Made by a program: the position numbers and the translations under genes. Shown one piece after another: positions 3,817 to 26,862 of a DNA stretch of 64,000 nucleotides (position 1 is its first letter; each line of letters starts with the position of its first letter). This stretch comes from Belliella alkalica. GTDB lineage: Bacteria; Bacteroidota; Bacteroidia; Cytophagales; Cyclobacteriaceae. The stretch covers positions 1 through 64,000 of the forward strand of contig NZ_JAKZGO010000007.1 in assembly GCF_022549785.1 (NCBI RefSeq). The letters run 5' to 3'. The notes beneath the pieces are model-generated. The model made no database searches and was not told the origin of the DNA. It saw nothing but the letters and a program-made list of their open reading frames with translations.

Positions 3817-4533
3817 AAAAATTGGTCTCGCATTTTTTAGCTAAATGCCTGCAGAACAACACGTACTGCTATTAGCATCTCATCTTGTGCGAGATTTATT
3901 TATTACATTAATATCTCAATTTTAGTTCCATACACTCAATCTTATTACAAAAGAATCTTCAACACTTTTAAAATCAACAGAATGAACAAAAAATTTCTTT
4001 TTTAAGCTACGTGAATGGTGAAGAGTTGAAATTCCAAATATCCGAAATATACTAATTTAGCATAATAAGAAAATTGTTAAAAGGCCTGTAAATAACTTGT
4101 TTACTCCTGGAAGGAAAAGTACTAAAAGACGTAGATTTTAGTCATAAAAATTCAATGGAAATAAATAAATCTGATACATTAGATTGAGACCTAATCCCAT
4201 ACTGTATCTTTTACGATTTAGCTCTGTAAAACCAAGCTTTAAGATCATGTTGTTTTGTAACTGGAGTATTTACCTACTATAATTGAAGATAAAACGTAAA
4301 CTATTAATCAAGCAAACGGATTTGATACGGAAATCTATGGGTTTTATTGGTTTTGAAAGGATTGATTAGGAGCAAAAACAATTGCTTTGGTTGACAAATT
4401 ATGTTTTTTATCGAAATCTGTCAATCAGCGTTCTAGATTAAAAAAAGAAACTAAGATATTTCATGGGATATTGAGGCATATTGTATTATTTTACGTTTAT
4501 ATCTTAAAGAGTAGATTTTTGGTAATTCCAACC
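3817..4533. other. 717-bp gap, no recognisable gene
   Basis: AT-rich sequence with stops in all frames. A frame open from 4387 (TTG) runs into the AAA ATPase, but the 49 residues before the ATG at 4534 do not look like protein domain sequence. I treat them as leader DNA that probably holds the promoter of the ATPase-protease pair. Confidence 0.5.
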
Positions 4534-5502
4534 ATGGCAGCTGCAGAACAAATAAAAACGTTAATCAAATCATTTGGAGAAGGGGATGAATCCCGCTTCT
4601 ATGCTACTGCTATGCAAATTGCTGCATCTGAAGCTAGAAAAGGGCATCTTGCACTGGCTGAGGAATTGAAAAAATTGATTGATAAGAGTAAATCTTCCAA
4701 AGCTGTTGTCAAAAGATTACCTGTAAATGCTGCCCAAAAAGAACTGAATGACCTCTTGGAACTGGTCAGTCCCAGCATAAGATTGAAAGACATGGTGCTT
4801 TCCAAGGATATTCAGGAGACCTTGGCTAAAGTCATCCACGAACAAAGGCATTTGGATAAGTTATTAAGCCATAATCTTCAACCTAGAAGGAAACTCCTTC
4901 TTGTTGGTCCTCCGGGATCAGGAAAGACCATGACTGCCCATGCGTTAGCTGGAGAATTAGGGCTTCCCTTATTTGTCATTCGTTTGGATGGTCTTATCAG
5001 TAGATACCTTGGTGAATCCATAGCGAAGCTTAGATTGATTTTTGATGCCATGATGGACTTTAGAGCTGTTTATTTGTTTGATGAATTTGACAGCATTGGT
5101 AGCACTAGAACCCAGACTCAAGATGTGGGTGAAATCAAAAGAGTATTGAATAGTTTTTTGTTACAGATTGAAAAAGATAAGTCCAATAGTTTGATAGTTG
5201 CTGCTACCAATTTGCCAGAAAGTTTGGATACTGCCCTTTTCCGAAGGTTTGACGATATCATCAATTATACTAACCCTTCAGAAGTACAGATCAAACAAAT
5301 TTTTGCTTCAAGATTAGAGGAAATAGGAATTCAAAAAAACCTGGACTTAGATCACCTATCTAAGAGCTCAATGGGTTTGAGCTATGCGGAAGTGCATAAA
5401 ATATGTGAAGATACCTGGAAAGATTATTTGCTGTATGGAGAAAATCGTGTAACCGAAGAAAAAATAATTCAGTATATAATGGCAAGAAAGAGAACATACT
5501 AA
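4534..5502 (+). CDS. AAA+ ATPase paired with a subtilisin-like protease
   Basis: 322 aa from the ATG at 4534. The N-terminal ~100 residues are helical (EQIKTLIKSFGEGDESRFYA...). The AAA+ core has Walker A GPPGSGKT at residues 125-132, Walker B YLFDEFD around 185-191, a sensor-1 AATNLPE and an Arg-finger region LFRRFDDI. It most resembles single-ring FtsH/katanin-like AAA proteins. The subtilase gene starts 9 bp after its stop, so the two are one operon. Such AAA/S8 pairs recur in accessory islands. I infer that the ATPase recognises or unfolds a target for the protease, or restrains it. Confidence 0.85.
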   Translation: MAAAEQIKTLIKSFGEGDESRFYATAMQIAASEARKGHLALAEELKKLIDKSKSSKAVVKRLPVNAAQKELNDLLELVSPSIRLKDMVLSKDIQETLAKVIHEQRHLDKLLSHNLQPRRKLLLVGPPGSGKTMTAHALAGELGLPLFVIRLDGLISRYLGESIAKLRLIFDAMMDFRAVYLFDEFDSIGSTRTQTQDVGEIKRVLNSFLLQIEKDKSNSLIVAATNLPESLDTALFRRFDDIINYTNPSEVQIKQIFASRLEEIGIQKNLDLDHLSKSSMGLSYAEVHKICEDTWKDYLLYGENRVTEEKIIQYIMARKRTY

Positions 5503-5511
5503 TCAAAACAC

Positions 5512-7968
5512 ATGGATGGATTTTTTAAGCATATATTTTTAGAGAACAAAGCGAGTTCTATAAGCTTTACTCCCCTAGGAACTGGTAGGTTTAAAACAAA
5601 CAAAAACATCGATCAAACCAAACAAGGGAGTAAACTCAAGAATGAATTTGATGCTGCTTTCCAAGGTTTTTGGCAAGGAGAACCTGGTGATTTCGTGTAT
5701 GTGGAATTTGAAACATTTCCTGGTTTTGAACTTGATATCAACAAATTTGAAGTGAAATCGGGTGATATAAGAATTGCTTCTTTAAGACAAGTAATAGAGG
5801 AAGATGGTTCTGAAAAGACCACGAGTTCGATCTATCTTTCTAAGAAAGGAGTTAAAGTTTTTCTCGAAAAAATATCCGCCTATTCTCAACCAGAAAGAAA
5901 TACAGAAATAGGAAACCCTAAAAACGCAAGCCTATTATCCAACCTTGAATCCATACATCAAGCTACTCTAAAGTCCTTTTGGCAAGAACCTGAAATCCCC
6001 TTCCCTGATAATGAACAGGAAGTATGGTGGGAGGTTTGGTTAGATATAACGACCACGTCAGCGGAGGCTGTCCGTACGGAGATCACTGACCGATTACAAG
6101 CATTCGGTGTACAGATATCCTCTCGATTTTTGGTTTTTCCAGAACATCTTGTGATTCTGGTAAAGGGAGGTGCTAAACAACTGGCTGAACCACTGTTATA
6201 TTCTCAATACCTGGATGAATTAAGAAAACCAGTGGAGTTGTCTGATGCTTTTACTTCCATGGATATTCCTGAACAAAAAGACTGGATAGCCAACTTGGCG
6301 GAGCAATTAGAAATTCAGGAAAATTCAAACTTGTCAATATGCCTTTTGGATTCTGGGATCAATGAAAGCCATCCCTTATTGGCACATTTGTCATCAATTA
6401 TCCATGTGGATACGGTTGACCCTTCATGGGGGACTAATGATTCTTGGCGTTTCCCTGGTCACGGAACAGCTATGTCAGGAATCATCTTTTTTGGGGATTT
6501 ATCGGAAGCCTTAGTATCTAGGGAAAGCATTAGGATTTTCCACCAATTGGAAAGCATAAAGTTGATCCAGCAATCAAAGCCAATAGATCCAGATCAATAT
6601 GGTGCGGTTACAGAAGAAGCCATTGCTAGAGCAGAGACAAATCCTATTGAACAAAGAGTATTCTGCATGGCCATAACTGCTGATGGAGATACCAACTTTG
6701 GTAGACCTAGCGCTTGGTCTGCGGCAGTAGACAAATCAGCCTTTGGAGAAGAAGATTGGAAACGGTTAGTATTGGTTTCCGCAGGAAATATTCCCAATCA
6801 TAGATGGCTGGAATATCCTTTATCCAATAAGGATTACAGCATACATGACCCTGCCCAAGCTTTCAATGCCCTGACAGTTGGAGCATATACCTTGAAAGAT
6901 AGAATTGATTTATCCAAATATCCAGGAGCAACTCTTTTGGCTCAAAGAGGGCAGTTAGCTCCTTCAAGCAGTACAAGCATAACTTGGGGAAAAGAATGGA
7001 CAATTAAACCAGAAGTTGTTTTTGAGGGAGGAAATGCTGCAGAATGGAATCGCGGACTTTGTGATCCTGATTCCTTGATGCCATTAAGTATTTCCAAAGG
7101 AGGAATGGCAAGCTCTCTATTCTCCACTTTTGGAGAAACCTCCTCAGCAACGGCATTTGCTAGTAAGTTTGCCGCAAGTATTTTAGAAAATTATCCAAAA
7201 ATTTGGCCAGAAACAGTAAGGGCACTTATGATCCATGCTGCCCAATGGACAGATCAAATGTTGGGTGACAGGAAAATTGAAGATCTTTCCACAGTTGAAA
7301 AAATGCAATTATTAAGGACAGTAGGTTATGGAGTGCCTTTTTTGCCTGCTGCCTTATACACTTTACAAAATTCCGTTTCCTTAGTTGTTCAAGAAACCAT
7401 TACACCTTATAAATTTGAAAGTAGTCGGGTTCAGGCCAATGAATGCCATGTATTCACCCTTCCTTGGCCACAGCAACAATTGTTGGAAATGGGAAATACA
7501 CAGGTCAGGTTGAATGTAACGCTCTCGTATTTCATTGAACCCAACCCAGGCAATAAGAGGTATGCCAAGGCTAACAATTATGCTTCATTTGGTCTTCGGT
7601 TTAAATTAAAGGATACCAATGAAACTTCCACTACTTTTTTGGCAAGGATCAATAAAGAGGCTAGAAATGCATTAGAGGAGGACTATCAACAAGAAGGTAG
7701 TGAAAATTGGGTAATCGGTCAAAAAATACGAGACAAAGGATCCATCCATAGAGATATCTGGATAGGCAATTCAGCTGATTTGGCTACCAAGAACGAACTG
7801 GCCATCATTCCAACTGGGGGTTGGTGGAAGACAAGACCCATCCATAAACGCTACAAACAATCCGTCCGATACAGCCTGATCATCAGCATAGAAACAGATA
7901 CGGAGGATTTACTGACTCCGATTTTGAATGAATTGAAGTTAGGTGTTGAAGTCTTAAATATTCCCTAA
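5512..7968 (+). CDS. S8 family subtilisin-like serine protease
   Basis: 818 aa with a complete catalytic triad: Asp280 in LLDSGINESHP, His317 in FPGHGTAMSG and Ser544 in GETSSATAFAS. Residues 1-270 form a large N-terminal region unlike a standard pro-peptide, and about 170 residues follow the protease fold. No signal peptide or membrane segment is seen, so it should act in the cytoplasm, which suits pairing with the AAA+ ATPase encoded 9 bp upstream. Members of this ATPase-associated subtilase group occur in defence-rich regions. Substrate and trigger are unknown. Confidence 0.88.
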   Translation: MDGFFKHIFLENKASSISFTPLGTGRFKTNKNIDQTKQGSKLKNEFDAAFQGFWQGEPGDFVYVEFETFPGFELDINKFEVKSGDIRIASLRQVIEEDGSEKTTSSIYLSKKGVKVFLEKISAYSQPERNTEIGNPKNASLLSNLESIHQATLKSFWQEPEIPFPDNEQEVWWEVWLDITTTSAEAVRTEITDRLQAFGVQISSRFLVFPEHLVILVKGGAKQLAEPLLYSQYLDELRKPVELSDAFTSMDIPEQKDWIANLAEQLEIQENSNLSICLLDSGINESHPLLAHLSSIIHVDTVDPSWGTNDSWRFPGHGTAMSGIIFFGDLSEALVSRESIRIFHQLESIKLIQQSKPIDPDQYGAVTEEAIARAETNPIEQRVFCMAITADGDTNFGRPSAWSAAVDKSAFGEEDWKRLVLVSAGNIPNHRWLEYPLSNKDYSIHDPAQAFNALTVGAYTLKDRIDLSKYPGATLLAQRGQLAPSSSTSITWGKEWTIKPEVVFEGGNAAEWNRGLCDPDSLMPLSISKGGMASSLFSTFGETSSATAFASKFAASILENYPKIWPETVRALMIHAAQWTDQMLGDRKIEDLSTVEKMQLLRTVGYGVPFLPAALYTLQNSVSLVVQETITPYKFESSRVQANECHVFTLPWPQQQLLEMGNTQVRLNVTLSYFIEPNPGNKRYAKANNYASFGLRFKLKDTNETSTTFLARINKEARNALEEDYQQEGSENWVIGQKIRDKGSIHRDIWIGNSADLATKNELAIIPTGGWWKTRPIHKRYKQSVRYSLIISIETDTEDLLTPILNELKLGVEVLNIP

Positions 7969-7972
7969 TGAT

Positions 7973-8862
7973 ATGCTAAACTGGCGAGACATAAATTCCG
8001 AAAAACCTGAAATTGGACAAGTTGTAATCCTATTGGATGAAAAGATCACAGATTTTAGAAGTGGACTTTAGGCCAGTTTTTAGAAAATGAAAATAACACT
8101 GACCATGGATACTTAATTCAATCAAATAAAATAATTAAGCCTGATAGCTATGCTTTTTGGACACCATTTTTAATAAAAGATCAAAGGATTCCGGGAGACT
8201 ATAAAGAAAAAGAGTTGCCACAGTTTCTATGTGCCTTCAAAGAAATTTTAAAAAGCTATGAAAATAGAATACTACTTATGGCTAAAACAAGTCAGTTATC
8301 CAGTGGAAAAACCTTCCATTTGGATTTCTATTTGAATGGTACCTATTCCAGAGCACTATCATTAATTGAGGGTTTTAGAGTTCTGTTAGATTCGAAAAAT
8401 TACATGGCTGCATCTCATATTATAAGACCTTATCTGGACAATTTCCTTCGCTTATTTGCATCTCATTTGGTCAAGAATCCAAATGGATTTGGCAACGAAG
8501 TGATGAAAGGAAAAAAAATGGAGGAGTTCTTTGATAAAGAAAATCCAAAAAAAACGCTTAAGGATTGGTATTTAAGGGAAAAAGCCTCTGAATCACACCC
8601 TTGGATCAACGAAGTCTATAAAAAAACCTCAGGATATATCCATTTTAGCTCCAAACATATTTTCAATCCAATTAGCAAAGTAAATAAAGAAGATGGAACT
8701 ATTGGACCTTATCTAACTAATTACGACTCTGAAACAGTTACTGACCTCAACCGAATTGAAGCAGTCCTAGTAATAATTGAAATTTCAAACTGTATTTTGG
8801 AATATGCTTATGGTTGGACTAGAACGAAAAATCAGGACTACTTATCATTTTGTAAAGTGTAA
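7973..8862 (+). pseudogene. frameshifted gene: DUF551-like start plus DUF5677-like body
   Basis: The ATG at 7973 starts MLNWRDINSEKPEIGQ, which resembles the W-I...KPE-G-Q opening of DUF551, and hits TAG at 8068-8070. A second frame open from 8059 (about 12 bp of overlap) supplies the matching end (YLIQSNKIIKPDSYAFW-P-F) and runs to 8862. Joining the frames gives one protein. The C-terminal 195 residues from the ATG at 8278 are helical, with ALSLIEGFRVLLDSKN and ASHIIRPYLDNF, recalling DUF5677/Abi-like helical proteins. That downstream part could still be translated alone. Its end overlaps the convergent gene at 8845 by 18 bp. Confidence 0.55.
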
Positions 8863-9741
8863 TCTATCGAATTCTATTCCATTTTTCAGGTTATGTTCAC
8901 CTTCAATATAAGTGACAATTTCCCCGTTTTTTTCTTTGTTTACAATCTTCACTCCATATCTTTCAAGAAACGGACTTATATTTCCGTGCTGCTGAAGCCA
9001 CTCTTCATAGCCTTTAATTGATGGCCCTCCAGTGTTAATTACGAACTCTACACCATGATAAACAAAAACAAAAAAAGTCTCCTTTCTGCTAGTAATTAGT
9101 AAATCATTTCCTATTCCAGCTGTCACCCAATCTCCACTTTGAGGATCACGCATTAAGGCATCCATGGGATAGATTGTTCGCTGTGAGAATGGCCAAACAC
9201 TTACTCCTTTGTTATACCGAGCATAATTCCGAATCGAGTCATAATGCGGTTCTTCTGCCAATATCTTACACCAATCTGAATCGTATAAGTTTTGATAAAC
9301 CAAAAACTCCAAAGCCATCTTCGCTAGTAATCGAGACATTAGGTCTTTTGGTGGATTGATACTAATTGGAAATAAAAAATGATTGGCTTCAAGACTGATA
9401 TTTTTATGAACATTAAATTTTGTGGAATTTTCTAAACTTATTGTAAGATTACCCTTCTCATTAAGTTTCAAGTTAATCTTTGTTTCCGTTCCAGCTATTT
9501 CACCTAGAACAGAAGGATGATTCCCTTTTTTATTGGGTACTTGATACCAACCCCTCATATTTCTAAATGAAGGATGCTCAAGTATCGGCTTTTCCACCTT
9601 TCTAGCAAAATAGTTATTGCAAGAATCACAGACTATACCTTTCGGAAGTACCAGTTTGTAGCTACCAAGAGACTCTGGAACAACATGTTCTCTACTTGTA
9701 GATTCTGATGTATCCTTTTTACAAAATAGGCACTGTTTCAT
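8845..9741 (-). CDS. HNH-type (CxxC...EHVxPExLG) protein, last gene of the defence operon
   Basis: 298 aa. The N-terminus holds a zinc-knuckle HNH signature: CLFC (residues 4-7), then REHVVPESLG, then IVCDSCNNYFA. This order (CxxC, E-H-x-x-P, CxxCN) is that of HNH_5-like nucleases. The remaining ~230 residues are unrecognised and may be a sensor or target-recognition part. It begins 10 bp after the PtuB-like gene and is the sixth and last gene of the minus-strand operon running from hsdR. It is distinct from the HNH of the preceding gene, so the operon encodes two different HNH proteins. Nuclease activity is predicted, not shown. Confidence 0.75.
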   Translation of the reverse strand: MKQCLFCKKDTSESTSREHVVPESLGSYKLVLPKGIVCDSCNNYFARKVEKPILEHPSFRNMRGWYQVPNKKGNHPSVLGEIAGTETKINLKLNEKGNLTISLENSTKFNVHKNISLEANHFLFPISINPPKDLMSRLLAKMALEFLVYQNLYDSDWCKILAEEPHYDSIRNYARYNKGVSVWPFSQRTIYPMDALMRDPQSGDWVTAGIGNDLLITSRKETFFVFVYHGVEFVINTGGPSIKGYEEWLQQHGNISPFLERYGVKIVNKEKNGEIVTYIEGEHNLKNGIEFDRLHFTK

Positions 9742-9751
9742 AATTAAAATC

Positions 9752-10540
9752 TTATAAAAATATTAAGTATTGACTAAAATTACTTTTAAACATATTTGAA
9801 TATTCACCACCTTCAGAAACATAGTTTCTTAATCTATCAAAAAAAATTTCTTTACATTTTTGCTCATTTGGGTGTCCTATGGAGGTGATATAGCAATCCT
9901 CTAAAGCACTAAGGTCATCGAGCCTCTCTTCTCTAAAATTGTCTAGAAAACTTCTATCTAGCCCTAGTTGGGTAATAGTTACTTGTCCTCTAGTTGTTTT
10001 GGCTTTTATATATTGATCGATAAATTCAATATGATCTTCAGGATCATCGTTTTCAGGATGAATAAAAGTTGGCAACTCACTATTTACGTCTGAATGATGA
10101 TTTAATGCCCTTACAGAATTACTTTCAATTGGAAATACATCTTGCTTTTCTCGCTGATTGCATTTTTGACACGCTAAAAACAAATTATCCCAATCATAGG
10201 ATTTCCAATAATATCCCGGATAAACAATTGGTGTCCCATTCGCCTGCTTCCATCGACCCTTTGGTCTAAAATGTTCAATATCACCGTCCGAAACATGCCT
10301 CATTTTTGATTCGCAAAAACAGCATTTGCCATTTTGAATATCTGTTAATGCCTCCTTCACCTCATCGCCTCCATATATTTCTTTTTTAAAATTGAACTGA
10401 GAAACTGGTTTATTTGGGGATAATGCAAGATATCCACTTGGATTTGAATCAAAATCAGTTTGAAATTTCGATTTTTCAAGTAATCCATCTGAGGCCAATA
10501 TAGATGGTACAGATACTCCAGATTTATCAATTCTTATCAT
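9752..10540 (-). CDS. ptuB-like: PtuB-like HNH endonuclease (Septu-type)
   Basis: 262 aa. The HNH core is CCFCESK, then DIEHFRPKGRW, then a YYWKSYDWDNLFLACQKCN segment and an FP motif (DVFPIE). This is the pattern of PtuB and of the TIGR02646/retron-associated HNH family. Its start overlaps the stop of the ATPase gene by 4 bp, the PtuA-PtuB arrangement of Septu anti-phage systems. In Septu the ATPase forms a complex with and controls the nuclease. No retron RT or msr/msd is adjacent, so I favour Septu over a retron. An N-terminal extension of about 75 residues precedes the HNH core. Confidence 0.85.
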   Translation of the reverse strand: MIRIDKSGVSVPSILASDGLLEKSKFQTDFDSNPSGYLALSPNKPVSQFNFKKEIYGGDEVKEALTDIQNGKCCFCESKMRHVSDGDIEHFRPKGRWKQANGTPIVYPGYYWKSYDWDNLFLACQKCNQREKQDVFPIESNSVRALNHHSDVNSELPTFIHPENDDPEDHIEFIDQYIKAKTTRGQVTITQLGLDRSFLDNFREERLDDLSALEDCYITSIGHPNEQKCKEIFFDRLRNYVSEGGEYSNMFKSNFSQYLIFL

Positions 10541-12147
10541 TTTTGCTGACTTTTTATTCTTATTGCTTCGTTTCTTAAAATTATCTTATCTTCAACTTCT
10601 TCAATTGTTTCTCCAGTTGGTAAATACCCTAGTTTGTTTTTGTATAATTCCAAAAGCCTTTTATCTTCTTCGCTCAAATTACCTTTTGAAATTATTTGCT
10701 TTCTCTTTTCTGCAAAGTCATCTGTTGATAAGGTTCTAGAACTATTTAAATTAAAATATTTACTCAATAAAACATGATCAATTCTCCAGTTTGGTAATTC
10801 AAATACTTTATAATCAACCTCTATCGTATTTTCTATTCCTTCTTTAAATAAAAAAATATCGCATCCTTTTGCTTCCTGAACAATTAAAGGACTATGCGTT
10901 GCTACTATAATATGACTGTTATCATCATTCAAATTGAAATAATGTAGCAATTCCACAAATCTTCTTTGCCAAGCTGGGTTTAAATGTGTGTCTGGTTCAT
11001 CTAGTAGAAACAGGCAATCTTGCCTCCCAGAAATAAGTATCAATCCCAAAACGGTTATCAGTTGTTGTTCTCCTTCACTAAGAGAATGAAATTGAAACAT
11101 TGTATCTCTTAATTCGGACCTGACACTTAATTGAATTTCATAAATCGAATCAATTACATAAAGAGCATCGAGGGCATCTAAAAAATCTGCTGGGTGTAAA
11201 AATTCTTTGTTAACTTTAGTTGCAACTTTATTTTTATCTAGTTTAATAATTAAATGTTCTAGCCCATCCTCGTCGTCAAAATACGATGTGGGAATATCAG
11301 GACTGTTTAAGTATAAAAATGAAATTAGCTTATGTGCTTTTCCTTTTGTCCCCCAAAAAGGATATTCAATTTCTTCTTCTTCTGTTTTTTTTGGTAAAAG
11401 GTTTTCTACAATAAATTCTATACTAACTGGATTCAAAGATTTTTCAGAACCACGTTTATACCAGTTTGGCTGTTTCAAATGTATAGTAAATTCTTCTAGA
11501 TTGGAAAATGAAGTGAACTCTTTTATTAAGTAATCTAGTCTTTCTTTGAATTTAGCAGAAGGTGGATCAAATCGAAATAGCAATATAGTCAATAGTACTA
11601 GTTGCGAATGGTGATTTTCTGCAAAAAACATATCCCGAAACCCCTGATCTAAAACGTTGTTTTTCTTAAGATCTTCCCATACTGTTTCTTCATATGGCCG
11701 AATTATTTCTCTTATCCTTTTGTTTTCCCCTGAATAATAACCAATTATATAATCTGGCAAATATTCTTGTTTTCGCTTACTTTTAAATTCAGAAAATTTT
11801 AATGTATGGAATTCTAGATCAGATGTGCCTTTTTGTTTGCGCTTAATATAAAAAACATTTTCTCCATCATTATTAAAGCATTCAATAATCAACTCTGAAT
11901 TCTTACACTCATATCGAATTTTGTATTCAAAAAAATTATACGGCCATTCTAAAAACGCTTTCCTAGTCCGCAGTAAACCTAGGTCTCTAAAGATTAAACC
12001 CAATATCTCTATTAAATTAGACTTGCCAAGTCCATTCCTACCTACTAATAGTGAAATTAGATCAGAATTAAATTCTAGATGCAAATTTTTGAAATTTTTA
12101 TATTTGGAAATCCAAAGAGACTTTATCTTCATATTATTTTTTTTCAT
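10537..12147 (-). CDS. ptuA-like: PtuA-like ABC/RecF-type ATPase (Septu-type)
   Basis: 536 aa. Walker A is GRNGLGKSN (about residues 36-44). The ABC signature is SLSEGEQQL, Walker B LFLLDEPDTHLNP and the switch histidine VATHSP. A long insertion lies between Walker A and the signature, as in PtuA, OLD and other SMC-like defence ATPases; no TOPRIM domain follows. The ATG at 12147 lies 15 bp after hsdS, and the 3' end overlaps ptuB by 4 bp. The ATPase is therefore in one operon with the type I restriction-modification genes. The likely role is to sense infection and gate the HNH partner. Confidence 0.88.
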   Translation of the reverse strand: MKKNNMKIKSLWISKYKNFKNLHLEFNSDLISLLVGRNGLGKSNLIEILGLIFRDLGLLRTRKAFLEWPYNFFEYKIRYECKNSELIIECFNNDGENVFYIKRKQKGTSDLEFHTLKFSEFKSKRKQEYLPDYIIGYYSGENKRIREIIRPYEETVWEDLKKNNVLDQGFRDMFFAENHHSQLVLLTILLFRFDPPSAKFKERLDYLIKEFTSFSNLEEFTIHLKQPNWYKRGSEKSLNPVSIEFIVENLLPKKTEEEEIEYPFWGTKGKAHKLISFLYLNSPDIPTSYFDDEDGLEHLIIKLDKNKVATKVNKEFLHPADFLDALDALYVIDSIYEIQLSVRSELRDTMFQFHSLSEGEQQLITVLGLILISGRQDCLFLLDEPDTHLNPAWQRRFVELLHYFNLNDDNSHIIVATHSPLIVQEAKGCDIFLFKEGIENTIEVDYKVFELPNWRIDHVLLSKYFNLNSSRTLSTDDFAEKRKQIISKGNLSEEDKRLLELYKNKLGYLPTGETIEEVEDKIILRNEAIRIKSQQK

Positions 12148-12162
12148 GAAGTAGTTTAAAAC

Positions 12163-13407
12163 TTAATCGACATTAACCAACTCCCCCCGAAATGCCTTCG
12201 CCAATATCGCCTGAGGCAATTGGTCAATCTTGGCTTTTAAGGAGTCATATTGGGATTCGATTTTGTCTGCCATAGAGAATAGAGCATCGACCTGAGATAC
12301 GATTTCTTTTTGTTCTTCTAAAGGCGGCATAGAAATATCCCAGTTTTTGACTTTACTTAGATTCAAATTAGGCTGATTTCCTCCTTCTGCTTTTGCTCTA
12401 ATGTCATTGTATTGGCTTAAGCAGTAATAGAATACATAGGTTCTAGTAATCGTAGGCATTGTTTCATTTACTAATGCTGCAATTGCTTGATTGGTTGTAG
12501 CCTCTATTTTTAGCCATCCAACTTGACCTCTAGTTTTACCTTCACCATACATGGCAACCAAAAGTGTATCTACTGGGAAAATTTTAACATTTGAGTCCCT
12601 GATAGCTATTTCTGTTATAAGTTCATCAGCTTCAAATATTAACTCATTTTTGACCAGTCCAGATTTTACCCAAGGGATGGTTCCCCCTTCATAATATTCT
12701 TTCACACCTCTTCTCGGGGTACCACCGGTTTTGACCTCAAATAAACTTCCAATTGTAGTCTCCTCCCACTCCTCCAATCCTTTCCCCTCTCTCCATTCCC
12801 TCGTCAACTCCCCAGTAACCGCCTGGGTCAAAACCTGCTGACGGAAGTTTTTTAGCAAGGTAGGTATCCCGTCCAACTTCTCCCTTAAACTATCCAAATG
12901 TCCAAACAATGCATCCAATTTGGCTACTATGCGCTGTTGCTCGAGAAGGGGAGGGAGTAAAAACTCTAATTCCTCAATCATTTTTGCAGAAATATTTGGT
13001 TGGGCTGCTCCGTAAGCCACGTCCTCAATTTCTTTCTTTAAGTTTCCAAGCAGGTAGAAAATGAATTTCTTGGATACTTTATCTGTGTTTGGTTTTAAGT
13101 TACCGACACGCTGATTTTGGAGTGCAATTTCACTTTCGTTGTAAATCCCATATTTTCCTGTTGTTGCGCCAGACATAGCAACCAAGATATCCCCCCTTTC
13201 AACAACAAAATTTTTCTTGAAAAGCTCTTCAGGAACCATTGCTGAATTTTGAATAAGTACTTGTCCATCTTGGATATTAGATATCCTGATAACTGGAATT
13301 CCGTAATCTTTAAAATCCTGTGATTTAAATGCATATCCGTTTTTCACAGATAAAACTTCTTTTAGCTTGGTTTGAGTCCACCCCATTGGTAATTTCTCCT
13401 CCATCAT
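12163..13407 (-). CDS. hsdS: type I restriction-modification specificity subunit S
   Basis: 414 aa with the classic repeated layout. Target-recognition domain 1 begins LPMGWTQTKLKEVLSVKNG; a conserved helical spacer follows (PPLLEQQRIVAKLDALFG...LRE). Domain 2 begins LEEWEETTIGSLFEV and ends with a second spacer (PPLEEQKEIVSQVDALF). HsdS sets the bipartite DNA target of both methylation and cleavage; the target cannot be read from the sequence. The start overlaps hsdM by 4 bp and ptuA follows after 15 bp. Confidence 0.95.
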   Translation of the reverse strand: MMEEKLPMGWTQTKLKEVLSVKNGYAFKSQDFKDYGIPVIRISNIQDGQVLIQNSAMVPEELFKKNFVVERGDILVAMSGATTGKYGIYNESEIALQNQRVGNLKPNTDKVSKKFIFYLLGNLKKEIEDVAYGAAQPNISAKMIEELEFLLPPLLEQQRIVAKLDALFGHLDSLREKLDGIPTLLKNFRQQVLTQAVTGELTREWREGKGLEEWEETTIGSLFEVKTGGTPRRGVKEYYEGGTIPWVKSGLVKNELIFEADELITEIAIRDSNVKIFPVDTLLVAMYGEGKTRGQVGWLKIEATTNQAIAALVNETMPTITRTYVFYYCLSQYNDIRAKAEGGNQPNLNLSKVKNWDISMPPLEEQKEIVSQVDALFSMADKIESQYDSLKAKIDQLPQAILAKAFRGELVNVD

Positions 13408-14867
13408 CCCAACAAAGCAATTATCTGGTCCAACTCTTTTTTAATGGCATCCAATTCAGATGCTGCCTGCTTGGCGATATCCAAGGGCTGACCCAGGTCG
13501 GCATTTTTGCTGATGTTCTCATTCTCAATCAGACCGATATCCAAGGAATCGTTTTTGGCGGCGATCTGCTCACGGGTAAAGACCTGCCATCTTGGGTCCT
13601 GAATGGCTTGACGTTTGGCATCATCCACCGTCCCATCATAGCTGTCCTTCACTTCCTCCAAGCCCAAGCCTCCTGTATAAGCTTTTACAAAATCCGCAAA
13701 GGCTTCCCGGGTAAAGGGAGTTCGCTTACCATAGCTAGGGGCATTGGTTCGCATATCGTAAAACCATACCCGTTTGGTATTGCCTGTTTCTTTTTTGCCC
13801 CGAGTAAAAAACAGCACATTGGTCTTCACACCTGCAGCATAGAAAATTCCCGTTGGCAAGCGAAGCACTGTATGTAGGTCGCATTTATCCATTAAGTCAC
13901 GACGGATTTTTTGTCCATCATTATCTTCGAAAAGCACATTATCGGGAAGCACCACTGCAGCCCTTGCTGTACCCGTATCCCTTCTTAGGGAACGGTAGAT
14001 GTGCATCAGGAAATTCAGCTGCTTATTTGAGGTTTGGATGGTAAAATCATCCCGAGTAGGCCTTTCTCCTCCCTGCTTGGTTCCGAAAGGTGGATTGGCA
14101 AGCACGCCGTCATAGTTTTTGAAACTTTTACCTTGTTCTGTCAAGGTGTCTCCCATAAAGATTGGGCTTTCCAGGCCATGCAGCTTGGCATTCATCAGAG
14201 CGAGTCTATGGGCATCCTGTACCAGTTCACAACCTGAAAAAGCCTCGTTGACTTGAAAAGCTCTTTCTTTGCTGTCTAAGGCATAGTAGTCCATTGTCTT
14301 TCGCTTCAGATACTCATCCGCCGCAATCATAAAGCCAAAAGTTCCTGCTGCTGGGTCATTCCAGCGCTCACCAATTTTGGGAGCGAGCAACTCCACCATC
14401 ACATTTATCAGTGGTCTAGGTGTAAAGTACTGCCCTGCCCCACTCTTTTTCTCTCCCGCATTCTTTTCCAGTAGTTCTTCATAAATACTGGCAATCTTAT
14501 CCTGCTCCTCGTCCTCATACCAATCGATTTGATCAATATTGGTAATCAACGTGCGGAGGTTGACAGGCTTGCGCAGGGTACTAGAGGCATTTGTATAGAT
14601 TTCCGTGATTGCAGCATTGGTGGACATCGTACCCAAGTTAGCCAGCAAGTCACGGTAAGTATCAAAGAGTTCTTTGTTGTCTTTGATCCCTTTGAGTTTA
14701 GACCAGCGATATTGTTCGGGAATGTCTTGGTCGAATTTCTTCACCTCGGACAATCTTAAAAAAAGTATATATGTAAGTTCGTTCAAATACTGATGATATG
14801 TAACTCCGTCATCACGAAGTACGTTACAAAGTTCCCACAGTTTCTTTGCAATCTGTTCTGCACTCAT
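13404..14867 (-). CDS. hsdM: type I restriction-modification DNA methyltransferase M
   Basis: 487 aa N6-adenine methyltransferase. An N-terminal helical HsdM domain (residues about 1-130) is followed by SAM-binding motif I DPAAGTFGFM and catalytic motif IV NPPFG, with GAGQYFTPRPL between. Motif I has Phe where Gly is more usual (GTGGF), a mild deviation seen in relatives. The C-terminal coiled region ends at the hsdS start. The gene is 9 bp downstream of hsdR and overlaps hsdS by 4 bp, so R-M-S is a single transcript in the order hsdR-hsdM-hsdS. Confidence 0.95.
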   Translation of the reverse strand: MSAEQIAKKLWELCNVLRDDGVTYHQYLNELTYILFLRLSEVKKFDQDIPEQYRWSKLKGIKDNKELFDTYRDLLANLGTMSTNAAITEIYTNASSTLRKPVNLRTLITNIDQIDWYEDEEQDKIASIYEELLEKNAGEKKSGAGQYFTPRPLINVMVELLAPKIGERWNDPAAGTFGFMIAADEYLKRKTMDYYALDSKERAFQVNEAFSGCELVQDAHRLALMNAKLHGLESPIFMGDTLTEQGKSFKNYDGVLANPPFGTKQGGERPTRDDFTIQTSNKQLNFLMHIYRSLRRDTGTARAAVVLPDNVLFEDNDGQKIRRDLMDKCDLHTVLRLPTGIFYAAGVKTNVLFFTRGKKETGNTKRVWFYDMRTNAPSYGKRTPFTREAFADFVKAYTGGLGLEEVKDSYDGTVDDAKRQAIQDPRWQVFTREQIAAKNDSLDIGLIENENISKNADLGQPLDIAKQAASELDAIKKELDQIIALLG

Positions 14868-14876
14868 GTTTTTCGT

Positions 14877-17800
14877 TTAGGCGTATAAATTTTGATTGAT
14901 CTGAGTGATCATTTCTTCCAGTTGCTCCTCAAAAATCCTGTTTAGCCGCTCAAATCCTCCGGCTTCATCGAAAGGATCTTCATCCAGATCTTCTTTTCTC
15001 AGAACTGTTTCTTTGAGCAGTTGTTTTTCAAAGCGGTCTATCCATTTTAGTTGGGTTTTGTTCCAAACTTTCATCTCCCGAATGCTGTTGACTGCTTTTT
15101 TGACACGTTCTTCGTGACTGATAAGCGAACTGCCCAAGGATAGTGTACGGATATATGAAATGATATCTGCTGCAATATCTTCATTTTTTGTTGCTTTCCA
15201 TGCAGCATGCAATGAAGTGGTATTATAACCTTCTTGGTCAAGGGCTAGCATCAGATCCTTCAAAGACTTGCGGTCCAGTTCGGTAGGGCGACTACAGACG
15301 ATTTTTAGGGCTTCGATTTTGTTTTGATTATCTTGAATAAATCTAGCAAAGTTATCTAGATAGTCTTCAGGCTTTTTGGCTTTGCCATATCCCCGTTCTA
15401 TTCCAAGAAACATATCATCATGTTCTGATACTAAAGTTGGATTTATCTCAGGTCGTAATTTGTCCAGAAAAACCCATAAGCCCGTTAGCTCAACAATTTT
15501 CTTTAAAGCTTCAGATGTATCTAAACCTTTTAATTGCTCCAAAAACTCCTCTGGATCTGATCCATTGGCATTATAAGCAAATTGATTAGCATGATCTCCT
15601 TTAAGGTATCTCTTCTTGCGCTGAATTTTAGCCACCAATTGTTCCACCTGCTTTTTGGCCTTTTCTCCTTGGTCAATTTCTTTCAGCTCTTCTACCAAGA
15701 GTTGGAAGCTGACTTTGGGGTTGGCTACAACTGGTTTCATTTGAGTGAAATCTTCTAATGTTTCGTAAATTTTCACTGCATCGTAAATTTTAAAAACTTC
15801 CTTGCCGATTTCATCACAACGACGGGTAGCTCTCCCTAACATTTGTTCATAGAGAATTCTTGATTTAATTCGACGCATAAAGACCAAGTTACAAATAGCT
15901 GGCACATCAATGCCAGTGGTCAAAAGATCTACCGTCACCGCAATATTTGGGTATTTTTCATTTTTGAAGCGACGAAATTGCTCTTTTGGGTTATAAGATT
16001 TTCCAGTGATTTTCTGAATGGCATCATCTTCTACTTCAACACCAATCGTTGCAAACTCTTCTTTCAGGTAAGACACCACCATATCAGCATGTTCATCAGT
16101 TGCTGCAAAAACCAAGGTCTTTTCCTCCCCATCAGGATCAAGTTCCTTAACCAATTGTTGGATGACCGTTCGGTTAAAACTCGGAGTAATTACTTTTCTA
16201 TTGAACCCAGAAATATCGATTTTCAACTCATCATCGAGTTTTTCAAGTTCGATGATCGTATTATTTTCCCTATCCAAAGCCTTTGGTTGAGCGCCTTTCT
16301 CCCAAATAATACCCTCTTCTCCTAATTGGGTTTTGATGATGTAAGGAGGTTCATGGTCTATCAAGAACCCGTCAATCACTGCCTCTCTGTAGGAATAAGT
16401 ATATACAGCTGGGCCGAAAATTTCAGTAGTATGTAAGGCAGGGGTGGCTGTGAGACCTATCGCAAAAGCATCAAAATAATCAAGTACCATTCTGTACTTG
16501 CTAACATAATCCCGCTGATCTTTGAAATTGAGCTCGTCTTCATCCATCTCACGATCCATCAAGTAGCCTCTATGGGCTTCATCGATGATGATACAATCGT
16601 ATTGATCTACCGGAGGGCTATCTTGATCTTCACTATAAAAAAGACGCTTGACCATACCTTGTACCGTAGCAAAATGAAGCCGTGTGTCCAATTCGGGCAC
16701 TTTGTCTTGAAGTTCCTTTATTCCATATATTTCGGAAAAGGTATTGAGTCCGATGATTTTATTGTCTTTGAAAGAATTGATAGCTTGGGTGGCCAATAGA
16801 GTTCTATCTACTAAAAATAGAATTCTTTTGAAGCGGTTAGACTGAATCAATCGGTAGCAGAGACCAATGATAGTTCGGGTCTTTCCTGTTCCAGTAGCCA
16901 TCGTAATCAAAGCCCTTGATCTAAAAGGATCTTCAAGCAATACTTTCTCCAATTCTTTAATTGCTTGAATTTGATACTTCCTCAAACCAAGCCCTGACTG
17001 ACTTTCTAAAAAATCTACAGTCTCGGTTTTTAGTTTATCCTCTGATGCCTGTAGGTCTTTTTCCATTAACTTGACTAAACCTTCCGGACTGTACCACCCT
17101 TTTAGCGCTTTGGATCTTTTGTGTTTTTGTCTTACATCGAGAAACCAAACCCCGCTCTTGGTTTTAATTTGCTCCAAGTAAGCCCTTCCATTTGTAGAAA
17201 AGAGGAAAGGAACCTTATGTCCCTGCCAATCTCCCAATAAGCTACCTTCAAACTTGGTTTCTACTAGCTCAGCATAAATTTTGGATTGGTTTAAGTCTGT
17301 CGAAATATCCGAAGCATATTTTTTTGCTTCCACAATTGCGTATAATTGTGTTCCTATGAAAAGTGCATAGTCTGCCCATTTACCTCCACACGGCCATTCT
17401 GCTATTGCTAGATTTTTACCTCTTTGAGGTTGTGTCTTATTCTTTTTGAAATTGAGTACTTGTGTATCAACTTCCCAGCCTGCAGCCCGTAATTGCTCGT
17501 CTATCAAAAGACGGGTTTCTGCTTCTGACATTTCTATCTTTCGAGCAGCTTTCTGAGAGCGAGTTTGGATTTCTTGTTGTTTTTCTTCTGGAAGTTGAAT
17601 AGTGCTCCTTTCTTGGAGCAGTTCCTCAAATTTTACTTGCAGCTCCGCATATTCCTGTTCTAAAATATGAAGCGCATGGCGTGTATCCTTATTTTCTGGT
17701 AAGTGAAATTTTACTGTGCTGAGGTCATCATTTTCTTCTGAATATGTTTGATAAAACCATTTGGATATTTTGAATGTGGAAAAGAGTAATTCTTTAGCAT

Positions 17801-18110
17801 CGTTCAAAGATCCTTTGTTATCATGTACTGCTTTGTTTCCCTTGTTTTTGATAGTGTGAAGGAGGTCTTTTACTTGAGAAGGCAAGACATTTTCAAACTC
17901 CAAAGTTTTCAATCGGCTATGAAAGGTATTATCATAAGGGAAGTCCAGATGATGCAATTCAAAAAGTAACTCACTGACCCTTTCCCCAAACTGTCGCAGT
18001 TTCCATAGACTAGTTACTGGATCCTGATACAAATTAAACTCGGCTGACTGCCCGATATTAAAAAGGATTGGAAATTCAGATTCTAGAAAAGAAAAATTGG
18101 ATTTGGGCAT
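14877..18110 (-). CDS. hsdR: type I restriction endonuclease subunit R
   Basis: 1077 aa. Residues 1-150 are a helical DUF4145-like N-terminal part. The PD-(D/E)xK nuclease follows at about 250-290 (WADYALF...AIVEAKKY). The SF2 translocase has Walker A TMATGTGKT, a DEAH box IIDEAHRGY, motif III GLTATP and motif VI QMLGRATRR. The C-terminus is an EcoEI_R-like helical domain. It cleaves unmodified DNA after ATP-driven translocation. It is the first gene of the minus-strand operon; a 279-bp gap separates it from the divergent regulator operator at 18390. Confidence 0.95.
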   Translation of the reverse strand: MPKSNFSFLESEFPILFNIGQSAEFNLYQDPVTSLWKLRQFGERVSELLFELHHLDFPYDNTFHSRLKTLEFENVLPSQVKDLLHTIKNKGNKAVHDNKGSLNDAKELLFSTFKISKWFYQTYSEENDDLSTVKFHLPENKDTRHALHILEQEYAELQVKFEELLQERSTIQLPEEKQQEIQTRSQKAARKIEMSEAETRLLIDEQLRAAGWEVDTQVLNFKKNKTQPQRGKNLAIAEWPCGGKWADYALFIGTQLYAIVEAKKYASDISTDLNQSKIYAELVETKFEGSLLGDWQGHKVPFLFSTNGRAYLEQIKTKSGVWFLDVRQKHKRSKALKGWYSPEGLVKLMEKDLQASEDKLKTETVDFLESQSGLGLRKYQIQAIKELEKVLLEDPFRSRALITMATGTGKTRTIIGLCYRLIQSNRFKRILFLVDRTLLATQAINSFKDNKIIGLNTFSEIYGIKELQDKVPELDTRLHFATVQGMVKRLFYSEDQDSPPVDQYDCIIIDEAHRGYLMDREMDEDELNFKDQRDYVSKYRMVLDYFDAFAIGLTATPALHTTEIFGPAVYTYSYREAVIDGFLIDHEPPYIIKTQLGEEGIIWEKGAQPKALDRENNTIIELEKLDDELKIDISGFNRKVITPSFNRTVIQQLVKELDPDGEEKTLVFAATDEHADMVVSYLKEEFATIGVEVEDDAIQKITGKSYNPKEQFRRFKNEKYPNIAVTVDLLTTGIDVPAICNLVFMRRIKSRILYEQMLGRATRRCDEIGKEVFKIYDAVKIYETLEDFTQMKPVVANPKVSFQLLVEELKEIDQGEKAKKQVEQLVAKIQRKKRYLKGDHANQFAYNANGSDPEEFLEQLKGLDTSEALKKIVELTGLWVFLDKLRPEINPTLVSEHDDMFLGIERGYGKAKKPEDYLDNFARFIQDNQNKIEALKIVCSRPTELDRKSLKDLMLALDQEGYNTTSLHAAWKATKNEDIAADIISYIRTLSLGSSLISHEERVKKAVNSIREMKVWNKTQLKWIDRFEKQLLKETVLRKEDLDEDPFDEAGGFERLNRIFEEQLEEMITQINQNLYA

Positions 18111-18389
18111 ATATTACTATTAAGTGTGGTTTTTAGCTTCTGCTAAAATAAGGATCTTAAACTAAAATCACTATATATGATATAAAATAAACTTGTTTTG
18201 AAAAAGAAGAAAATGGTTTAAGTAAATCGATTCGCATCAAGTGGGAAATTGCAGGGATTTTAACCCTCTAGTTTTCGTTAAATGCCATAATTGATTAAAA
18301 AACCTTATAAAAGATCAAGTGGGAAAGATATCAAGGAAATGGGGGGATAGGTGACTTTTTCTTCTAAAGACAAATAAGCCTGATACTAA

Positions 18390-18421
18390 ATGTCAAGTTT
18401 TACACATCAAAAACTTGACAT
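18390..18421. promoter_or_regulatory. palindromic operator before the AbiEi-like antitoxin
   Basis: A perfect 12-bp inverted repeat: ATGTCAAGTTTT (18390-18401), an 8-bp spacer, and AAAACTTGACAT (18410-18421). It sits 28 bp before the ATG at 18450. Self-repression through paired upstream repeats is typical of AbiE-type antitoxins. Its presence argues against starting the protein at the ATG at 18390, which lies inside the palindrome. Confidence 0.7.
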
Positions 18422-18449
18422 ATTAAATCAAACGAACTACCCTTGCATT

Positions 18450-19172
18450 ATGAAAGTAGCAGAACAAATACGAAAAACAATCGCAAAACTACCCGAGGAT
18501 AAAACCTTTGGATATGCCGACTTGCGTATTGGTAAAGAAGACAATCAAACTGCTGCCAAAGCCTTAGAAAGAATGCAAGCTAAGGGATTAATCAAAAAAA
18601 TGTCGAAGGGCATATTTTATAAACCCATAAAAACAGTATTTGGAGAATTGCTTCCTGATGAAAGTGAACAGTTAAAACGCTATTTATTTAAAAATGGGAA
18701 GCGCATAGCCTACATCACAGGCGAATCGCTTTATAATCAAATGAACCTCACTACCCAAATGGCATTTAGAATAAAAATAGCCAGTAACAAAAGAATAAAT
18801 ATTGACAAAGGCGCAATCAAGGCAAAATCTGTAAAAAGCTATGCTGAAGTATCCGAAGAAAATTATGGATTGTTGGGATTTTTAGATGCTTTAAAAGATA
18901 TAAAAACAATACCCGATTGCCCTGTATCCAAAGCAGTCATGATTTTAAGCAAAAAACTAGAATTGTTTCAAGATAGACAAATAGAGGATTTGATAAAATA
19001 CGCTCTTTTATATCCGCCAAGAGTTAGGGCATTATTGGGTGCTATACTCGAAAACAGCAGCACTCAATATAATATTTCAAAATTAAAAGAAAGCCTAAAC
19101 CCATTAACAAAAATCAAATTAGGTTTAAAAGAAACAGATTTATCATCCATTAGGAATTGGTATATCACATGA
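18450..19172 (+). CDS. AbiEi-like (DUF6088) type IV antitoxin
   Basis: 240 aa from the ATG at 18450. The N-terminus is a winged-helix-like segment (KTFGYADLRIG...AAKALERMQAKGLIKKMSKGIFY) typical of AbiEi/DUF6088 proteins, followed by the antitoxin domain with TGESLYNQMNL. Such proteins bind DNA at their own promoter and counteract the adjacent AbiEii nucleotidyltransferase toxin. The downstream toxin start overlaps by 4 bp (ATGA), the normal pair arrangement, but that toxin is gutted. This antitoxin therefore looks orphaned, perhaps kept as a regulator. Confidence 0.8.
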   Translation: MKVAEQIRKTIAKLPEDKTFGYADLRIGKEDNQTAAKALERMQAKGLIKKMSKGIFYKPIKTVFGELLPDESEQLKRYLFKNGKRIAYITGESLYNQMNLTTQMAFRIKIASNKRINIDKGAIKAKSVKSYAEVSEENYGLLGFLDALKDIKTIPDCPVSKAVMILSKKLELFQDRQIEDLIKYALLYPPRVRALLGAILENSSTQYNISKLKESLNPLTKIKLGLKETDLSSIRNWYIT

Positions 19173-25931: not shown

Positions 25932-26858
25932 TTACTTTCTAAAAAGGCTGAGTGAAAAATACTCCTTACTATCCAAAAAGTGTTTGTCCCATTCAAATCC
26001 TGTTTCTTTACCAATTGAATCTAGTTCCTTTAAGCTATACTTTCTGGAGATTTCTGTACGGATAGTTTCATATTTTTCGAATTTAAATACGTGATTCCCG
26101 ATTGTTACTTGCTGATTATTTTCACTGAACAAGAAACTTAGTGCTTCACCATTGATGGGATTGTAGGTTCCATAATGACCAAAAGAATCAATATCAAAAT
26201 CACCTTTCAATTCCCTATTTATCCTTTCAAGCAAATTGAGATTGAAGCGCTTTGTCACTCCTTTGCTATCATTGTAGGCTTTACGAATGATATGAGGATT
26301 CTTTTTAAGATCCACGCCCATCAAAAAATAATCCCCCACCTTCATCATGTCATTGACAAAACGCATAAACTCCTTGGCTTTTTCTCCAGAATAATTTCCA
26401 ATATTACTTCCCATAAATAATATGAGTCTTGGATTTTCTCTTTCTACCAATTGACCTGTAGTCAAAGTATAATCTCCTGAAATCGTAATTATTTTGATAT
26501 CAGGTATTTGTCTAAGGATGGTTGATTTGTTTACTTCCAAAATCTCTGGAGAAATATCCATTGGAATGTAAGTTACTGACTCGATTTTTTTGTGGAAAAG
26601 TTCTAGAAATGAAATCATTTTTGAACCATCACCAGCTCCCAGTTCTATAATATCAATTGAATCAAATGGAATTTGTTCTAAAATTGATTCAGCACTGTTA
26701 TTTAGAATTTCAACTTCACAGGCTGGTAAGTAGTACTCTTCCAAACCCATAATTTCCTGAAAAATTTTTGAACCACTTTCATCATAAAAATACATAGAAG
26801 GAATGGTTTTTTGCTCTGAACTGAGACCATCAATCACGTCTCGAAGAAATCTATCCAT
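25932..26858 (-). CDS. egtD: L-histidine N-alpha-methyltransferase (EgtD)
   Basis: 308 aa. EgtD trimethylates histidine to hercynine with three SAM, the first step of ergothioneine synthesis. The diagnostic start is present (SMYFYDESGSKIFQEIM, EEYYLPACEVEIL). The SAM-binding motif is IIELGAGDGSK, and LILFMGSNIGNY matches the family. It starts 4 bp after the egtB stop, so the two form a two-gene operon egtB-egtD. Length is normal for the family. Confidence 0.93.
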   Translation of the reverse strand: MDRFLRDVIDGLSSEQKTIPSMYFYDESGSKIFQEIMGLEEYYLPACEVEILNNSAESILEQIPFDSIDIIELGAGDGSKMISFLELFHKKIESVTYIPMDISPEILEVNKSTILRQIPDIKIITISGDYTLTTGQLVERENPRLILFMGSNIGNYSGEKAKEFMRFVNDMMKVGDYFLMGVDLKKNPHIIRKAYNDSKGVTKRFNLNLLERINRELKGDFDIDSFGHYGTYNPINGEALSFLFSENNQQVTIGNHVFKFEKYETIRTEISRKYSLKELDSIGKETGFEWDKHFLDSKEYFSLSLFRK

Positions 26859-26862
26859 ATAG

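Follow-up and report, generated by a model that had tools for sequence, protein, structure and literature searches.

When genes for a type I restriction-modification (R-M) system and for a Septu-like ATPase and nuclease share one operon, do they form one machine or two defences side by side? The question is raised by a minus-strand run of six genes (hsdR, hsdM, hsdS, ptuA, ptuB and an HNH_5 gene) in a stretch of 64,000 nucleotides from Belliella alkalica (contig NZ_JAKZGO010000007.1, positions 1 to 64,000), referred to here as the window. The recurrence of the pairing in distant bacteria, at times without HsdR, suggests that both parts may work as one machine; the conserved core is hsdM-hsdS-ptuA-ptuB, because hsdR is missing beside 37 of 80 related loci. 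We give a probability of about 0.5 to the reading in which the methyltransferase complex of HsdM and HsdS (M-S) keeps PtuA and PtuB (PtuAB) in check as a latent effector, in the manner of PrrC.

Linkage of ptuAB to hsdS and hsdM

A PtuA alignment was scanned against genome contigs of 84,980 species and yielded at least 463 relatives. The best 80 were kept with flanks of up to 10 kb, and profiles built iteratively from the six window proteins served to annotate their neighbours. The neighbours were not selected for, since the search motifs sit inside PtuA; the 80 are still the best-matching relatives. All of them have hsdM, and in each ptuA is preceded by a co-directional hsdS and followed by ptuB. 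The hsdS-ptuA distance is at most 163 bp in 79 loci, a 4-bp overlap being commonest, and 1,674 bp in L121; ptuA-ptuB gaps range from -128 to +20. Thirteen named phyla and 48 named genera are represented (genus assigned for 58 of the 80).

The same arrangement is found in six of six viral-contig loci. Seven plasmid loci were examined out of 33 records, two of them chosen by annotation; all seven have hsdM, hsdS and the ATPase gene, and one has hsdR. Some loci are redundant: L141 repeats L060, L133 and L134 are near-identical, and L191, L192, L193 and L245 repeat contigs of L133-L136. Phage records gave no near DNA match, and PtuA matched partially in two of them. Twenty loci of two other PtuA families served as a control; ptuB was called in 19 and hsdS lies directly upstream of ptuA in one. 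In this one (L177), an other-family PtuA follows hsdS directly with hsdM upstream, which suggests an independent hsdS-PtuA pairing. The linkage in 80 of 80 loci over 13 phyla, against 1 of 20 control loci, upholds the earlier proposal, made from the sequence alone, that the locus is composite and not a set of chance neighbours.

Smaller draws within single groups gave similar results. An unranked draw of 395 genomes from the window's phylum (Bacteroidota) produced 12 matches, the window included; hsdS lies directly upstream of the ATPase gene in all ten assessable loci among the other 11, the repeated locus L141 being one of the ten. Seven of these ten carry more divergent ATPases; PtuB adjoins in L142 and L143, and a different HNH family in L146. 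The phylum of G470 gave four matches in 398 genomes, two of them new: G803 has the order M-S-A-B (R, M, S, A and B stand for hsdR, hsdM, hsdS, ptuA and ptuB) with ptuA divided over two open reading frames (ORFs), and G719 has R-M-S followed after 862 bp by an ATPase gene without PtuB. In G1274, another class member, there is an HsdM relative at 72%, and the contig ends after hsdS.

The sixth gene does not belong to this unit. The sequence-only reading had taken all six genes as conserved together; no relative of the HNH_5 gene was found in 93 other loci, and a six-gene composite is therefore rejected. A gene order peculiar to this strain would have refuted that reading; R-M-S-A-B, found in 23 of the 80 loci, is not so restricted, and for the full six genes the objection stands. 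The gene after ptuB varies among relatives (McrB-like, RES, PLD-nuclease or others). A related large gene follows ptuB in seven window relatives (L054, L056, L057, L060, L061, L063, L064), and AAA_5 (McrB-like) domains are present in L054 and L061, the two that were scanned. In L073 the slot is instead occupied by a RES protein and in L113 by a PLD protein. The S-A-B-M locus L069 has a YhcG/DUF1016 nuclease-domain protein between ptuB and hsdM (L069:12525-13610); L076, L078 and L111 have inserts of similar size, the L069 gene alone having been scanned.

The ATPase and nuclease match Septu proteins in family and fold. In PtuA, the Walker A/B, signature and H-loop residues K42, S357, G359, D383, E384 and H418 are kept in 81 of 81 rows (the window plus the 80 genome loci) and S43 in 80 of 81; in PtuB, H90, N119 and N128 are kept in all 81. 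Among solved structures, a profile of 41 PtuA relatives matches retron and Septu PtuA chains best, followed by AriA, Rad50 and other ABC ATPases, while a PtuB profile of ten sequences matches exclusively PtuB or retron HNH chains. AlphaFold2 models point the same way: the PtuA model (predicted local distance difference test score, pLDDT, 86.1) best matches retron I-A PtuA 9n69 (E 1.4e-13, global template modelling score, TM, 0.43), and the PtuB model (pLDDT 95.7) best matches Ec78 PtuB 9u9y (E 1e-7, global TM 0.55). The modest global TM scores mean that the domain arrangement may differ. Window PtuB scores 55.7 against an NCBIfam PtuB cut-off of 150.

As in Septu type I, the HNH nuclease partner ptuB lies directly downstream of ptuA, and the window proteins match the PADLOC PtuA and PtuB models and the solved PtuA and PtuB profiles and folds. 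In contrast to Septu type I, the window clade is divergent and tied to hsdM-hsdS; ptuAB is not a stand-alone two-gene system in any of its 80 closest relatives. Passages of PMC12948488 describe for Septu a PtuA6:PtuB2 complex and phage genome degradation.

HsdR, the methyltransferase and the HsdS tail

HsdR is an optional part. With loci that have extra flanking genes placed under their core order, the 80 architectures are R-M-S-A-B (23), R-S-A-B-M (20), M-S-A-B (31) and S-A-B-M (6); HsdR is thus present in 43 and absent beside 37, five of which are close to contig ends (less than 3.6 kb upstream). For comparison, an HsdM-centred sample of 51 viral-contig loci was used, from which ten rows repeating a contig had been dropped and in which near-identical loci on different contigs were kept. 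Forty-six of these loci have no PtuA of at least 100 bits and were counted as unlinked, including L199 and L200 with weaker matches; 41 of the 46 have HsdR. HsdR is more often missing where PtuAB is present (37/80 versus 5/46; Fisher p 3e-5, relatedness not removed).

Thirty-six genomes with an R-less cassette, partly drafts and metagenome-assembled genomes, were searched with three queries; L070 was left out. PF04313 was absent from 18 of the 36; the search with the window HsdR (E 1e-10) was empty in 28, and that with a profile built from 18 linked HsdR sequences (E 1e-15) in 24. In 15 of the 36 there was no match by any of the three.

Four relatives have a methyltransferase that lacks its catalytic Asn. 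In L065-L068 (uncultured Bacteroidales, order M-S-A-B; L066 and L067 are closely related), HsdM motif IV reads EPP[MIL] in place of NPPF, which is intact in 76 of the 80 rows with a residue there, the window included. The motif suggests that the EPP-type enzyme is inactive. It is under purifying selection: for L066 and L067, the least diverged pair, the ratio of nonsynonymous to synonymous substitution rates is 0.107 for HsdM and 0.099 for PtuA, other pairs of the four being near or beyond saturation at silent sites. The HsdS proteins of these loci have 211-212 amino acids (aa), with one specificity domain in L065, the sole one scanned; the catalytic residues of PtuA and PtuB are intact in all four. 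The absence of HsdR beside the cassette is firm in L066 and L068 and limited by contig ends in L065 and L067. Among 393 genomes of the order of G453 there was no further EPP-type copy; G453's own copy (L067) and one ordinary NPPF relative were found. In L068, a 930-aa adenosine-deaminase-domain protein overlaps the start of the EPP-type hsdM (L068:4861-7653).

Most linked HsdS proteins are long (511-654 aa in 60 of 81) and carry, after the canonical HsdS end, a C-terminal domain of about 70 aa, here called the tail. It was found in 63 of the 80 genome loci, six of six viral loci and four of seven plasmid loci. The tail profile was trained on 33 of those genome loci, with six tails left out before building, and E values of up to 0.003 mark some of the further matches as weak. 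The tail is missing from L065-L068, L121 and the plasmid loci L047, L051 and L052. Searches of Pfam and PDB gave no convincing relative of the tail: one of 20 members matched Pfam, weakly, and PDB matches were weak (best E 0.00068).

The tail accompanies PtuAB. In the HsdM-centred sample it was found in none of 42 unlinked HsdS proteins (39 with a complete 3' end) and in four of five linked ones; these four contigs are already counted above, and L225 is without it. This sample was used because tblastn of tails against plasmids is too insensitive to assess specificity. The L101 tail matched two plasmid records, both PtuAB-linked, and those of L075, L085 and L109 matched none; the L069 tail matched 12, all solely over the canonical HsdS end. 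The same search missed the tailed HsdS of L046 and L048, which are present in the collection. Pairwise tail distances over the 63 loci correlate with those of PtuA (r 0.880) more than with those of HsdM (0.709) or of the tail's own HsdS core (0.616, 60 loci); for cross-phylum pairs the values are 0.498, 0.118 and 0.183. Because its distances follow PtuA more than HsdM or the HsdS core, the tail belongs with PtuA, whether it serves for docking or was carried along in one transferred stretch of DNA.

A latent effector and its rivals

A precedent for an ATPase nuclease within a type I operon is PrrC, the latent anticodon nuclease that accompanies the type IC R-M system EcoprrI. Passages of PMC2610378 and PMC3874165 describe PrrC as silenced by its type I R-M complex and freed by a phage anti-restriction peptide, and PrrC170 is given in a passage of PMC11555353 as HsdR, HsdS, PrrC and HsdM. 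As in EcoprrI, the ATPase gene of the window directly follows hsdS. It differs from PrrC in that ATPase and nuclease are split into PtuA and PtuB, the nuclease is of the HNH type, HsdR is often missing, and most relatives of the window system have an HsdS tail. The window ATPase is not PrrC itself: the PtuA model is best at 1.3e-93, and any PrrC match falls outside the best 25 of 125 and so scores below 57 bits.

The slot after hsdS is also filled in the three other type I loci of the same genome, which were found with PF04313. One holds PrrC (E 6e-130) 3 bp after hsdS, in the order R-S-PrrC-M (L188:12396-13502, G000:C16). In another, a bSEFIR protein and a Schlafen-AlbA protein lie between hsdS and hsdR (L186:4109-6763, G000:C84). 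In the third, a 1180-aa protein directly follows hsdS and precedes hsdR (L187:4060-7602, G000:C1); it has no match in Pfam (0.001), PADLOC (1e-5) or NCBIfam (1e-10) and is possibly a new restriction-linked effector.

We propose that a PtuA oligomer (ABC-type ATPase) and the HNH nuclease PtuB would dock on the M-S complex and be kept inactive there. The trigger would be a phage that inhibits, occupies or destroys this complex, for example by an anti-restriction protein; PtuAB would then be released or switched on by ATP and would cut nucleic acid, halting infection. The target might be phage DNA, which Septu attacks, or tRNA, the substrate of retron-Eco7 PtuAB. PtuAB would in this way guard the restriction system as PrrC guards EcoprrI, and in PrrC's place. 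The sequences show the near-obligate linkage to hsdS and hsdM among the closest relatives, the optional HsdR, a tail that goes with PtuA in most loci, intact PtuAB residues and the shared slot; contact, silencing, trigger and target are inferred. The chances are evenly balanced that a type I methyltransferase (M2S, here with HsdR) and a dedicated PtuAB effector directly after hsdS form a composite defence system.

A fuller version of this proposal is more tentative and falls somewhat short of even odds. In it, the M-S complex would be the sensor and PtuAB the effector of a type I-derived class, docked in most lineages on the HsdS tail, with HsdR dispensable. One lineage would have given up methylation, its pseudo-methyltransferase and half-sized HsdS acting purely to sense or to clamp the nuclease; the window would be a form that keeps full R-M.

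A latent effector fits better than the layered defence first proposed, in which restriction is backed by a nuclease, because that idea does not suit the HsdR-less loci or the four loci without the catalytic Asn. If this reading holds, PtuAB would be a general effector plugged into different sensors, such as the reverse transcriptase and multicopy single-stranded DNA (msDNA) of retrons or a type I methyltransferase. Loci annotated separately as 'RM type I' and 'Septu' would be one machine, hsdMS loci without hsdR would be explained, and HsdS would gain a function via an uncharacterised tail domain. The PrrC principle of punishing phages that disarm restriction would also gain a second case open to testing.

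Several results weigh against a latent effector. The PrrC precedents keep HsdR, while many PtuAB-linked loci are without it. HsdR is missing from five of the 46 unlinked loci too, of which L203 and L208 are cut by contig ends and L198, L200 and L204 have no HsdS call. The tail is absent from the window HsdS and its 12 nearest relatives (L053-L064), and its correlation with PtuA could stem from co-transfer of contiguous DNA and not from contact. In L144, L145, L147, L148 and G719, more distant ATPases of the same PADLOC family follow hsdS, and no PtuB was found adjoining; the 214-aa neighbour in L147 has no match, and the 645-aa neighbour in L148 was outside the PADLOC scan. Finally, cross-phylum distances over the 80 loci correlate at only 0.138 between PtuA and HsdM, a value reached or exceeded in 985 of 999 within-phylum permutations.

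This last value does not support a single cassette that is always co-inherited. Correlations within the two modules are higher (PtuA-PtuB 0.786, HsdM-HsdR 0.848, HsdM-HsdS 0.583). Within the 63 tailed loci the PtuA-HsdM value is 0.362 against a null of 0.327, with none of 999 permutations as high; this link appears weak. Changes between the orders S-A-B-M and M-S-A-B (FastTree) number one on the HsdM tree, eight on the PtuA tree and nine on the PtuB tree. From the weak correlation and the one HsdM against eight PtuA changes, PtuAB seems to have been re-paired with differing hsd backbones, each time right after hsdS.

Such modular evolution, together with the variable genes after ptuB, is what would be expected of an independent Septu that is embedded in, or hitch-hikes with, a type I operon and shares its transcript and mobility without physical coupling. 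Other defences do sit in type I operons: according to passages of PMC11411939 and PMC12255303, tgvAB lies inside one and acts without HsdR restriction activity, and DarTG2 is embedded in another. This explanation is nonetheless unlikely. Linkage is found in 80 of 80 loci here but in 1 of 20 in other PtuA families, the tail is not seen in unlinked HsdS, HsdM and HsdS occur in every one of the 80 although HsdR is often missing, and an M subunit without its catalytic Asn is under purifying selection. The window alone might simply combine an ordinary R-M system with an independent neighbouring Septu, because neither the window nor its 12 nearest relatives have the tail and the 11 of these relatives with enough flank all keep HsdR. 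The case for a latent effector in the window rests on relatives and linkage, since the window has HsdR and no tail.

Slightly less probable again is a role of PtuAB as an alternative restriction nuclease, recruited to cut by an M-S complex that has found unmethylated sites. Methylation would shield the host, and HsdR and PtuAB would be interchangeable or complementary. HsdR-less cassettes are indeed common, the NPPF methyltransferase is intact in most linked loci, and the tail could serve as a recruiting surface. However, the four methyltransferases without a catalytic Asn would leave host DNA unprotected, HsdR and PtuAB occur together in 43 of 80 loci, and PtuA matches SMC/ABC ATPases and not a translocating helicase. 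That the genes stand together in this strain by chance, or through an annotation artefact, is very improbable: the conservation counts refute this for the five-gene part, and only the HNH_5 gene, for which 93 loci yielded no relative, speaks for it.

The arrangement resembles other known systems in part. Retron I-A / Ec78 (Eco7), 'Septu type II', likewise has a PtuAB effector with a further component; passages of PMC12948488 describe retron-Septu PtuAB as kept inactive by msDNA (in Ec83) and released on infection. In the window the further component is a type I methyltransferase and not a reverse transcriptase with msDNA, and a Pfam scan of the six genes and ten neighbouring ORFs found no reverse transcriptase; the window is thus not a retron. 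The NCBIfam family TIGR04435, 'restriction system-associated AAA family ATPase', contains related ATPases, and its Priestia plasmid member (over the cut-off) has the order hsdM-hsdS-ATPase-HNH like the window cassette. In contrast to the window, the partner in Priestia is best matched by PDC-M01B and only weakly by PtuB. Window PtuA, at 115.6 bits against a cut-off of 300, is not a member.

Septu near or in Hma, and tgvAB or DarTG2 in type I R-M, are similarly defence genes within a methyltransferase-bearing operon. These cases are described as embedded, whereas the window family has near-obligate linkage and an HsdS domain in most relatives. MADS contains methyltransferase, HsdS-like and AAA ATPase proteins, which window HsdM, HsdS and PtuA match weakly; the scores for MAD2, MAD3 and MAD5 (67 of 720, 36.2 of 400 and 32.5 of 420) are all far below cut-off and membership is rejected. 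The 'restriction system-associated' name given to the ATPase family by NCBI curators and the theme of embedded defences are already known. The pairing itself is not described in the titles, abstract openings and passages searched, although papers on PtuAB and embedded defences may still mention it. Novelty is likeliest for the tail and for the EPP-type methyltransferases.

The operon in the window and its neighbours

The ORF coordinates agree with the six minus-strand genes and all five junction distances of the sequence-only reading: from hsdR to the HNH_5 gene these are 9 bp, a 4-bp overlap, 15 bp, a 4-bp overlap and 10 bp. Pfam, PADLOC and NCBIfam are in agreement on the six proteins (Table 1). 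Seven other aligned PtuA-type proteins begin where Met6 of window PtuA lies; the hsdS-ptuA gap is therefore probably 30 bp. HsdR, HsdM and HsdS are co-directional, as in a type I R-M system, and the catalytic motifs of HsdR and HsdM are intact; the HsdR nuclease residues D247/E261/K263 and the helicase residues are all present.

Table 1. Features of the hsd-ptu operon in the window
Feature	Coordinates	Strand	Description
hsdR	14877..18110	-	1077 aa; EcoEI/PRK11448-type type I restriction subunit; EcoEI_R_C, ResIII, PRK11448; optional in relatives
hsdM	13404..14867	-	487 aa; type I N6-adenine methyltransferase; N6_Mtase, HsdM_N; motif IV NPPF intact
hsdS	12163..13407	-	414 aa; specificity subunit; two Methylase_S stretches; no C-terminal tail domain
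hsdS-ptuA junction	12148..12162	-	15 bp; about 30 bp with ptuA start at Met6
ptuA	10537..12147	-	536 aa; SMC/ABC-type ATPase; PADLOC PDLC00293 1.3e-93; likely start Met6, base 12132
ptuB	9752..10540	-	262 aa; HNH-type nuclease; PADLOC PDLC00339 6.6e-79
HNH_5 (PF14279) gene	8845..9741	-	298 aa; HNH_5 1.2e-10

A single transcript for all six genes is plausible from their spacing. No terminator-like site was found at any of the operon's junctions. Weak sigma-70-like matches (9 of 12) lie at the hsdS-ptuA junction (12160-12133) and upstream of hsdR (18204-18177). There are 21 such matches, fewer than the shuffle mean of 29.6 (standard deviation 5.2), and the one at the hsdS-ptuA junction is within shuffle expectation. 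The strict pattern TTTG-N17..23-TAnnTTTG has no match on either strand in 8000-18600; its relaxed form has 12 minus-strand and 16 plus-strand sites there and is uninformative. The HNH_5 gene probably shares the transcript, yet it occupies a variable accessory slot and is no conserved part of the system.

Other genes of the window were noted. The gene for a 215-aa protein without a family match (8215-8862) converges on the HNH_5 gene, and the 3' ends of the two share 18 bp. Beside the operon on the opposite strand, an AAA ATPase and a subtilase match the IetAS defence pair (4387-7968), and an AbiEi-like DUF6088 protein (18390-19172) is divergent from hsdR. Further away, at 25932-28017, a Methyltransf_33 protein and an FGE-sulfatase/DinB protein form a pair that resembles EgtD/EgtB, which we take to be an ergothioneine-type pathway.

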